A DNA stretch of 64,000 bases. Origin: a virus. A program made the position numbers and the translations under genes. The number at the start of each line of letters is the position of its first letter. Position 1 is the first letter of the stretch. Shown piece after piece: positions 18,792-22,090 of the stretch. The stretch is taken from positions 1 through 64,000 of the IMG/VR virus record IMGVR_UViG_3300021964_000028; one strand, 5' to 3'. A model generated the notes under the pieces. It ran no database searches, was not told where the DNA came from, and worked only from the letters and a program-made list of their open reading frames with translations.

Positions 18792-18799
18792 GGCAGGCA

Positions 18800-18834
18800 G
18801 GGGGAGTTGACCCCCCTTTTTTATGCCCTATAAT
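18800..18834 (+). promoter_or_regulatory. terminator hairpin with embedded promoter (PeSL-like)
   Basis: GGGGG (18800-18804) pairs with CCCCC (18811-18815), followed by TTTTTT, a good terminator for the structural operon. TTGACC (18807-18812) overlaps the loop and 3' arm, and TATAAT (18829-18834) follows after 16 bases. A transcript from here would enter the psbA leader region. Confidence 0.7.
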
Positions 18835-19091: not shown

Positions 19092-20168
19092 ATGACTACT
19101 CTTTCACAACAACGACAATCAAATACTTGGGAACAGTTTTGCAACTGGGTTACCTGCACCGATAACCGTCTTTATGTCGGTTGGTTTGGAGTCCTCATGA
19201 TTCCTTGCCTACTTGCTGCCACTACCTGTTTCATTATTGCCTTCATTGCTGCACCTCCTGTTGACATTGATGGCATTCGTGAACCAGTTGCTGGTTCACT
19301 TCTCTACGGTAACAACATTATCTCTGGTGCTGTCGTTCCCAGCTCCAATGCTATCGGTCTACACTTCTACCCCATCTGGGAAGCTGCTTCTCTAGATGAG
19401 TGGCTTTACAACGGTGGTCCTTTCCAACTGGTTGTGTTTCACTTTCTCATCGGTATCTATGCTTACATGGGTCGTGAGTGGGAACTCTCCTACCGCCTGG
19501 GTATGCGTCCTTGGATTTGTGTTGCATACTCTGCACCTGTTGCTGCTGCATCCGCAGTCTTCCTCGTCTATCCTTTCGGTCAAGGTTCTTTCTCTGACGC
19601 CATGCCTTTGGGCATCTCTGGAACCTTCAACTACATGCTTGTCTTCCAAGCAGAGCACAACATTCTGATGCACCCCTTCCACATGCTGGGCGTCGCTGGT
19701 GTTTTTGGTGGTTCTCTGTTCAGTGCTATGCACGGTTCGCTTGTTACGTCCTCGCTGGTTCGTGAGACAACTGAAACGGAATCTCAGAACTACGGTTACA
19801 AGTTCGGACAAGAAGAAGAGACATACAACATCGTAGCCGCTCATGGTTACTTCGGTCGTTTGATCTTCCAATACGCTTCATTCAACAACTCACGTTCACT
19901 GCACTTCTTCCTTGCCGCATGGCCGGTTGTAGGAATCTGGTTCACTGCATTGGGCGTAAGCACCATGGCATTTAACCTCAATGGATTCAACTTCAACCAA
20001 TCAATCCAGTCCTCCGATGGACACGTCGTTAACACCTGGGCAGACATCCTCAACCGAGCAGGTCTCGGAATGGAAGTCATGCACGAACGTAACGCTCACA
20101 ACTTCCCGCTCGATCTTGCGTCAACTAGCTCCACACCTGTGGCCCTAGTTGCACCATCTGTCGGTTGA
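19092..20168 (+). CDS. psbA: photosystem II reaction-centre protein D1
   Basis: A complete 358-residue D1 protein. The ligand and cofactor residues are present in [18 protein letters not shown] (TyrZ and the Asp170 equivalent), [14 protein letters not shown] (His190 and His198) and [14 protein letters not shown] (His332, Glu333, His337, Asp342, with the C-terminal processing site after Ala344). Numbering here is one lower than in the standard protein. The residue equal to 130 is Glu (GREWELS), the high-light D1:2 form. There is no intron or frameshift. Phage D1 replaces photodamaged host D1 during infection. Its codons are more GC-rich than neighbouring genes, as expected of a host-derived gene. 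Confidence 0.99.
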
Positions 20169-20193: not shown

Positions 20194-20219
20194 GAAAGAG
20201 ACCTTTAGGTCTCTTTTTT
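20194..20219 (+). terminator. psbA terminator
   Basis: GAGACC (20198-20203) pairs with GGTCTC (20208-20213), with flanking A and T runs and TTTTTT at the end. Confidence 0.92.
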
Positions 20220-20247: not shown

Positions 20248-20286
20248 CCACCTCTGCTTGACGGGGGTGGTTTTTTATTGTATAAT
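20248..20286 (+). promoter_or_regulatory. PeSL-like terminator-promoter cassette (copy B)
   Basis: CCACCTC (20248-20254) pairs with GGGGTGG (20264-20270, one G-U pair), followed by TTTTTT. TTGACG (20258-20263) lies in the loop and TATAAT (20281-20286) follows after exactly 17 bases. Closely similar cassettes precede the next three gene groups. Confidence 0.85.
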
Positions 20287-20307: not shown

Positions 20308-20676
20308 ATGTTTAATTTTTTCAAAAAGAAACCTCTTATTGGATTAGAACTGGCTGCTAAAGTCAAAGAGCTTGGGCATTTAAGTAAAACTGAGATTGCT
20401 ATTGCTTGTGGTTACTATCGAGTGGTGGGCGGTGAACCCATAGCACTTTTTACTGATTTTTATACTGCAATTCTAGATTCTAGAGGTATAGATTTAGGAC
20501 CCCACCGCAAGCTTTCTTACATAGCAACAGTTCAGGGCAACGGCAATCTGCTGATCGGTACGGCATATACGGCTATGATGGGGTTATATCCTGGTGATCA
20601 TCTTGAAATCAAACTCGGCAAGAATGAGATCACATTGACTCGTATGGGTCCACTAGAGGATCCATGGTTCCCCTAA
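20308..20676 (+). CDS. cyAbrB-like transcriptional regulator
   Basis: A 122-residue protein. It matches cyanobacterial AbrB-like regulators in the N-terminal part (LAAKVKELGHLSKTEIAIAC) and the AbrB-type C-terminal part (HRKLSYIATVQGNGNLLIG, AYTAMMGLYPGDHLEIKLG). In the host this family tunes nitrogen, carbon and cell-physiology genes and binds DNA as an oligomer. The start is set at ATG because an in-frame TTG further upstream lies before the transcription start implied by the TATAAT at 20281-20286. The phage copy could re-programme host transcription soon after infection; its early-type promoter fits this. Confidence 0.85.
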   Translation: MFNFFKKKPLIGLELAAKVKELGHLSKTEIAIACGYYRVVGGEPIALFTDFYTAILDSRGIDLGPHRKLSYIATVQGNGNLLIGTAYTAMMGLYPGDHLEIKLGKNEITLTRMGPLEDPWFP

Positions 20677-20704
20677 ATATACAAACCAATTCTCAAACTG
20701 TCCA

Positions 20705-20739
20705 CCACCTCCTTACGGGGTGGTTTTTTATTATATAAT
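20705..20739 (+). promoter_or_regulatory. PeSL-like terminator-promoter cassette (copy C)
   Basis: CCACC (20705-20709) pairs with GGTGG (20719-20723), followed by TTTTTT, and TATAAT lies at 20734-20739. The -35 position holds CCTTAC or CTTACG, a degraded form of the CTTGACG seen in copy B. The sequence after the -10 (CTCATACAAAACAAACAC) also resembles copy B. Confidence 0.75.
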
Positions 20740-20763: not shown

Positions 20764-21396
20764 ATGATCATCAACGGACTCAAAATTAAATCAGGTGCTA
20801 ACCTTAAGGGTGCTGACCTTACTGGTGCTGACCTTGAGGATGCTAACCTTAGGGGCGCTAACCTTAGGGGCGCTAACCTTAAGGATGCTGTCCTTTATGG
20901 TGCTAACCTTGATGGTGCTAACCTTAAGGATGCTGACCTTACTGGTGCTAACCTTAAGGATGCTGTCTTTTATGGTGCTAACCTTGAGGGTGCTAACCTT
21001 AGGGGCGCTAACCTTGATGGTGCTGACCTTGAGGTTGCTAACCTTAAGGATGCTGACCTTGAAGGTGCTAACCTTAGGGAGGCTGATCTTTTCGGTGCTA
21101 ACCTCACTGGTGCTGACCTTAGGGACGCTGACCTTGAGGATGCTGACCTTGGGGATACTGATCTTAAGTGTACTGACCTTACGGGTGCTAATCTTAAGTG
21201 TGCTGACCTTGAAGGTGCTGATCTTTATGGTGCTAATCTTAAGTGTGCTGACCTTACGGGTGCTAACCTTAAGGATGCTGACCTTAGGTACGCTGACCTT
21301 GAAGGTGCTGATCTTTATGGTGCTAACCTTGATGGTGCTAACCTTAGGGGAACTATTTTAGAAGATAAGGATCAACGAGAACTATTCCTAAACTGA
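20764..21396 (+). CDS. pentapeptide-repeat protein 1
   Basis: A 210-residue protein made almost entirely of about 37 consecutive A(D/N)Lxx repeats after the short leader MIINGLKIKSG. It should fold as a right-handed quadrilateral beta-helix. Some pentapeptide proteins mimic DNA and inhibit gyrase, but most cyanobacterial ones have no known role, so none is assigned. The DNA is a low-complexity repeat prone to slippage. It is preceded by its own cassette promoter. Confidence 0.9.
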   Translation: MIINGLKIKSGANLKGADLTGADLEDANLRGANLRGANLKDAVLYGANLDGANLKDADLTGANLKDAVFYGANLEGANLRGANLDGADLEVANLKDADLEGANLREADLFGANLTGADLRDADLEDADLGDTDLKCTDLTGANLKCADLEGADLYGANLKCADLTGANLKDADLRYADLEGADLYGANLDGANLRGTILEDKDQRELFLN

Positions 21397-21461
21397 CCAC
21401 TGAACCCCCACAGGGCACTCAAATGCCTTATACTAAGCACATAGCAAACCAGGATTACCAA

Positions 21462-22043
21462 ATGAAAATCAACGGACACGAAATTAAATCAGGTGATAAC
21501 CTTTATGGTGCTAACCTTAAGGATGTTGACCTTGAGGGTGCTGATCTTAGGTGGGCTAACCTTACGGGTGCTAATCTTGAGGGCGCTGACCTTAGGGGTG
21601 CTGTTCTTAGGTGGGCTAACCTTAAGGATGCTAACCTTAAGGACGCTGACCTTACTGGTGCTTACCTTAGTGGTGCCTTCCTTGAGGATGCTTGCCTTGA
21701 GGGTGCTAACCTTAAGGATGCTGACCTTAGGTACGCTGACCTTACTGGTGCTTACCTTAGTGGTGCCTTCCTTGAGGATGCTTGCCTTGAGGGTGCTAAC
21801 CTTAAAGGTGCTGACTTAAGGGGTGCTGACTTTAGGAGGGCTAATCTTACGGATGCTAATCTTATGTGGGCTAATCTTAAGAATGCTGACCTCAGGAATG
21901 CTGACCTTAAAGGTGCCGATATAACAGGAACTATTCTTGAGAAGAAAGAAGATGATAAAGACCTTAAGATTAAAGAACTTGAAGAAGAACTGAAGAAATA
22001 TAAAGATACACTTAAGTCACTAAAGGGTCTTATGGACACCTGA
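21462..22043 (+). CDS. pentapeptide-repeat protein 2 with C-terminal coiled coil
   Basis: A 193-residue protein. The leader [11 protein letters not shown] matches that of the neighbouring pentapeptide protein, which is why this ATG is preferred to one 39 bases upstream. About 28 pentapeptide repeats follow, then a coiled coil ([20 protein letters not shown]) that could dimerise the helix. It is a paralogue of the gene upstream, probably by duplication. No separate promoter cassette is seen between the two genes. Confidence 0.88.
21643..21805 (+). repeat. 90-bp internal duplication in pentapeptide gene 2
   Basis: Bases 21643-21715 and 21733-21805 are identical over 73 bases with a period of 90. 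This adds 30 residues (six pentapeptides) in frame and is probably a recent slippage or unequal recombination event. Confidence 0.85.
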
Positions 22044-22051
22044 ATAACCGT

Positions 22052-22090
22052 CCACCTCCTCTTCACAGAGGCGGTTTTTTATTGTATAAT
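22052..22090 (+). promoter_or_regulatory. PeSL-like terminator-promoter cassette (copy D)
   Basis: CCACCTC (22052-22058) pairs with GAGGCGG (22068-22074) with one mismatch, followed by TTTTTT. TTCACA (22062-22067) is the -35 in the loop, and TATAAT (22085-22090) is 17 bases on. The sequence ACCGTCCACCTC is shared with copy B. Confidence 0.8.

Follow-up and report, generated by a model that had tools for sequence, protein, structure and literature searches.

A cyAbrB homologue encoded by T4-like cyanophages within a putative terminator-promoter cassette

The window, i.e. the whole stretch of 64,000 nucleotides that was analysed, is part of a 90,681-base IMG/VR virus record (IMGVR_UViG_3300021964_000028). 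It contains T4-like genes, including those for tail tube, baseplate tube cap, gp32 and gp59, together with the cyanophage auxiliary genes psbA, transaldolase, glucose-6-phosphate dehydrogenase, thyX and phoH; as judged from this gene content, the source virus is a T4-like cyanomyovirus of the lytic type. An open reading frame lies just downstream of psbA (Table 1), where a sequence-only reading of the same DNA had placed a gene for a cyAbrB-like regulator; it is here termed abrB. An alternative upstream TTG at 20278 is in frame and open, but falls within the promoter (TATAAT at 20281-20286), so that the ATG is the sensible start.

Table 1. Features at the abrB locus of the window and cyAbrB-type N-domain genes of other cyanophages.
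Feature	Position	Strand	Remarks
psbA (photosystem II D1)	19092..20168	+	upstream neighbour of abrB
psbA terminator hairpin	20195..20216	+	predicted to insulate abrB from psbA
Composite terminator-promoter 5' of abrB	20248..20286	+	9-bp hairpin, T-run, TATAAT
Phage cyAbrB gene (abrB)	20308..20676	+	122 aa; ATG 20308, stop 20676
abrB product layout			leader MFNFFKKK; N-domain ~residues 10-60; AbrB-type C-domain ~residues 65-113
Second copy of element	20704..20739	+	putative abrB terminator and promoter of pentapeptide-repeat gene; weak -35
Pentapeptide-repeat protein gene	20764..21396	+	next cassette
Second pentapeptide-repeat protein gene	21423..22043	+	context
Third copy of element	22054..22090	+	before ORF 22113; one stem mismatch; -35-like TTCACA
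Prochlorococcus phage P-TIM68 N-domain gene	KM359505.1 55868-56026 (L167:3001-3159)		annotated hypothetical; without DNA-binding domain
Fusion in phage WH11-B	L169:1647-2207		N-domain + ArdA-like
Synechococcus phage B23 gp246	L168:2905-3333		cyAbrB-type N-domain + different C-terminal region

The similarity to cyAbrBs, which had been proposed to extend over almost the whole protein, does so. The AbrB-like family profile PF14250 matches residues 50-110 over all 70 of its positions (69.5 bits, 2.6e-19; curated cut-off 25 bits). The first 50 residues are without Pfam coverage, and PHROG and NCBIfam assigned no family to the protein; however, because residues 10-60 align with the host N-domain in an alignment with 62 host cyAbrBs, the similarity spans nearly the full length. 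Many positions that are invariant across these 62 host proteins are retained, including K18, V19, K27, C34, G35, Y36, F51, Y52, R67, S70, Y71, N78, G79, G84, Y87 and G96. The cysteine of the CGY motif, which is the counterpart of Cys34 in Synechocystis cyAbrB2, is invariant among the phage copies; glutathionylation of Cys34 in cyAbrB2 blocks DNA binding (PMC13421787). By every feature testable here, the window protein is thus a member of the cyAbrB family.

In its two-domain layout, PF14250 match and Cys34 counterpart the protein resembles cyAbrB1 and cyAbrB2 (Sll0359 and Sll0822) of Synechocystis and the picocyanobacterial cyAbrBs. Unlike these host proteins it is phage-encoded and has an added leader, MFNFFKKK; MFNFFKK also opens every complete T4-like relative, and no other phage genes sharing MFNFFKKK were found. 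In the window copy the linker is shorter by about seven residues, most of its glycine-rich part being gone, and several host-conserved basic residues of the C-domain are lost, with K85 replaced by T and the LGRKQI motif reading LGKNEI, losses that could make it bind DNA less strongly. Relatives L004-L007 and L067 retain K85.

AlphaFold2, run with 44 sequences, gave a model with a mean pLDDT of 82 (about 92 for the N-domain, which is predicted as helix-helix-hairpin-helix, and 83-92 for most of the C-domain). The top PDB matches by Foldseek are AbrB, SpoVT and MazE, with probabilities mostly of 0.9-1.0 and E-values of 0.02 and up; since these E-values are modest, it is the consistency of the matches that argues for the predicted AbrB-type fold of the C-domain. 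The first viral match is the 'AbrB family transcriptional regulator' of Krakvirus (uncultured phage MedDCM-OCT-S39-C11), and small SpoVT-AbrB proteins of cyanophages Syn30 and S-SRM01, with the AbrB fold, are known here as fold-search matches by name.

The near-consensus promoter reported by the sequence-only reading is present, TTGACG-17-TATAAT (20258-20286) matching at 11 of 12 positions, although a promoter scan by itself does not reach significance (2 sites observed versus 3.9 expected in shuffles), and it proves to be one part of a composite element. The -35 TTGACG sits in the loop and 3' arm of a hairpin (-14.1 kcal/mol, z -3.3), with TATAAT following the T-run. The composite element is credible because it recurs 5' of abrB in independent contigs, as compared with 0-1 elements per 64 kb in random sequences of the same composition. 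By a strict scan it precedes abrB in seven contigs, i.e. the window and six relatives (L002, L005, L007, L068, L069 and L009), with a variant form in L004 and L006; in related contigs it also stands before many unrelated genes. The element is a predicted early promoter joined to a predicted terminator, at which transcription from upstream would end and a fresh transcript would begin. Bracketed by copies of it, abrB shows the layout of a self-contained, putatively monocistronic cassette; this mobile-looking terminator-promoter arrangement was absent from the earlier reading. Upstream of psbA, a hairpin with embedded TTGACC followed by TATAAT is present at 18799-18834, and the psbA promoter may be of the same composite type.

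Promoter-terminator cassettes of T4-type phages, termed PeSLs, were reportedly described by Arbiol in 2010 and Comeau in 2014. The element at abrB is like them in combining a sigma70-like promoter with a stem-loop terminator, in being repeated within a variable region (the window has three copies around abrB, and numerous others occur in relatives) and in flanking putatively exchangeable genes. It differs from them in that its -35 box is contained in the terminator hairpin, TATAAT coming after the T-run. The bracketing copies and varied abrB neighbours in relatives make it a candidate for a role in gene exchange. PeSLs have been judged unlikely to explain the S-PM2 ORFanage (PMC4503421).

The neighbours of abrB differ between relatives. 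The gene comes after psbA in the window and L002; in L068 and L069 it has psbD and a further small ORF ahead of it. It follows zwf in L005 and is preceded in L007 by a series of glycosyltransferase-like genes, and in L006 the gp46/47 region is close by. The psbA adjacency noted by the earlier reading is thus real but incidental, and a functional unit of abrB and psbA is rejected because of the varying neighbours. psbA has its own terminator. On the 3' side of abrB there is an array of pentapeptide-repeat genes, two in the window (20764-22043) and more in L002 (5744-8097), the number of which is apparently variable.

A tblastn search of 50,697 phage records (E<=1e-5) found no relative of the abrB protein. 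With relaxed limits the sole long match in these records was the Krakvirus AbrB (L012; 24.5% identical over 84%), which itself passes PF14250 (28.9 bits) and differs from the window gene in adjoining tail genes. In IMG/VR, ten further T4-like contigs carry relatives with about 60-99% identity in the region matched, the gene being cut by the contig end in some of them. Since independent contigs place abrB among T4-like phage genes, host contamination or a chimera is rejected as its source. The distribution is scattered and the gene is rare among sequenced phages, a rarity that counts against the main reading given below.

The family of Synechococcus RCC307 carries PF14250 genes in 61 of 61 genomes searched, at 2-13 per genome, so that a host cyAbrB partner would always be present. 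A search of host genomes gave 54 loci, the best 57% identical, and identity to picocyanobacterial cyAbrBs in alignments is 41-60%. Phylogenetic analysis places the protein inside, rather than outside, the family: the T4-like phage copies (8 distinct rows) form one clade with support of 100/100, which nests inside the picocyanobacterial cyAbrB group (98/99 node), supporting a host origin of the phage gene. The placement of Krakvirus L012 within the T4-like clade was attributed to a long-branch artefact, its branch length being 10, and was rejected; without L012, the clade is 100/100. A second full-length cyAbrB lineage, siphovirus-like, has its gene between large terminase and portal (L070, L075, L079, L091 and relatives), and another copy, L008, lies near tail-fibre genes. 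The gap between large terminase and portal is an unusual place for a regulator. Separate captures of the phage cyAbrBs are likely, a single origin of all of them being not rejected (AU p 0.077). No published description of a phage cyAbrB was found in a literature search; as far as the literature searched shows, a phage-encoded cyAbrB in T4-like cyanophages is new.

Pieces of cyAbrB are found more widely among cyanophages. A search with the N-domain identified two stand-alone versions. One, of 52 aa, is encoded by the isolate P-TIM68 (47% identical, 5e-10); the other, from IMG/VR (L170:3001-3156), is 83% identical to that of P-TIM68. In several other cyanophages, including isolates (L010, L011, L099-L114), the N-domain is fused to an ArdA-like C-terminal domain, as in the 'antirestriction protein' of Synechococcus phages WH11-B and 7B11-B. 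The ArdA assignment is based on Pfam and PHROG profiles, with a Pfam match above cut-off in one fusion (L010, 27.7 bits) and weak matches in others; Foldseek with the fusion proteins gave nothing useful for an ArdA fold. Together with gp246 of phage B23, four designs can be distinguished, i.e. full-length cyAbrB, stand-alone N-domain, N-domain-ArdA-like fusion and N-domain with another tail. Phages thus seem to reuse the N-domain as a module, which lends interference with the cyAbrB system more credibility than a single stray gene could. A broader and speculative proposal, which is possible but rather doubtful, is that cyanophages repeatedly target cyAbrB, by at least four designs, a pattern that would make cyAbrB a xenogeneic silencer or a layer of defence which phages have to subvert.

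Previous work on Synechocystis has shown by ChIP-seq that cyAbrB2 coats long AT-rich tracts comprising 15.7% of the genome, represses genes within bound tracts and excludes sigma factors, and that cyAbrB1 binds cyAbrB2 and has sites in common with it; the authors liken cyAbrB2 to H-NS and suggest a defence against foreign DNA, its oligomerisation being putative (PMC11368403). The AT-rich preference demonstrated is that of Synechocystis cyAbrB2; for picocyanobacterial and phage proteins it is putative, a point against the main reading given below. There are precedents for full-length host AT-binding nucleoid proteins in phages, i.e. H-NS in phage EPV1 and Lsr2 homologues in actinophages, which, like the phage cyAbrB, are apparently host-acquired and have signs of early expression, the role of EPV1 H-NS being inferred rather than tested; they differ in belonging to an unrelated protein family and in having hosts of another phylum (PMC3097231, PMC7074111).

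The reading that we favour, with a probability of roughly one half, is that the phage cyAbrB binds AT-rich DNA together with, or instead of, the host cyAbrB, so retuning host genes. An ancestral T4-like cyanomyovirus would have captured a cyAbrB gene from a picocyanobacterial host and carried it, flanked by a terminator-promoter element on either side, as a monocistronic cassette. The promoter suggests that the host's RNA polymerase and principal sigma factor transcribe the gene, probably early in infection. The product is predicted to fold into an N-domain and an AbrB-type DNA-binding domain and, from what is known of the family, may dimerise and bind AT-rich DNA alongside or in place of the host protein. 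Nucleoid occupancy would thereby be altered and host genes under cyAbrB control retuned; silencing on the AT-rich phage genome may also be adjusted. The action would be like that of full-length phage H-NS or Lsr2 homologues, rather than that of a pure poison subunit. An early-made, DNA-binding phage cyAbrB is favoured because of the biology of cyAbrB2, the gap in GC content between the window (36%) and the host loci measured (49-64%), and the EPV1 and Lsr2 precedents. Early timing, DNA binding and mixing with the host cyAbrB are what we infer, and redirection of host transcription by the phage protein, as proposed from the sequence at the outset, is plausible.

It may be, instead, that mixed oligomers of phage and host cyAbrB bind DNA poorly and so relieve silencing of phage or host genes, as is the case with truncated H-NS relatives. 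The loss of linker and host-conserved basic residues in the C-domain is consistent with such a dominant-negative partner, and the N-domain-ArdA-like fusions suggest that the N-domain can serve as a docking module. However, the AbrB-type C-domain is kept whole in all complete T4-like copies, the window protein retains R67, K68, S70, Y71, N78, G84, Y87 and G96, and lysine 85 persists in the five relatives named above. The dominant-negative role put forward by the sequence-only reading is thus weakened for the window protein, since its DNA-binding domain is retained, and we consider it a live but rather unlikely rival there; a natural candidate for such a partner is the N-domain encoded alone by P-TIM68, which, with its IMG/VR relative, demonstrates that a truncated form exists.

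The protein could also act within the phage alone, by binding promoters of the phage (the composite elements may be among them) and so timing its early or middle transcription, whilst barely touching the host. In favour of this are the repeated copies of the element, both around abrB and in related phages, and the common control of their own genes by AbrB-type proteins. The occurrence of the element before many unrelated genes in related contigs, and the fact that no known phage-specific regulator comes nearly as close to the protein as host nucleoid proteins do, make this quite improbable. Alternatively, abrB might be a shuffled moron under weak selection, carried between recombination-prone elements and of little effect, as the variable neighbourhood, flanking repeats and scattered distribution would allow. 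The dN/dS values bear on this in both directions, being near 1 for the closest phage pairs, where few changes are involved, an observation that also counts against the main reading, but mostly 0.33-0.58, and up to 0.75, for deeper pairs. The frame is open, family residues are conserved throughout a deep clade of phage copies, and the same gene stands beside terminase and portal in what appears to be a separate phage lineage, so that a mere passenger appears very improbable.

Phage-encoded homologues of nucleoid proteins are already known as a kind, to which cyAbrB adds another variant, and the favoured reading implies that the host's own regulator may serve the virus as a means of interfering with host gene control. 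It suggests a route by which phages that carry photosynthesis genes may reprogram host carbon, nitrogen and photosystem genes via one global regulator. The question of an H-NS-like silencer of foreign DNA in cyanobacteria has been raised only recently, for cyAbrB2, and the phage cyAbrB and phage fragments are natural tools for testing that idea.
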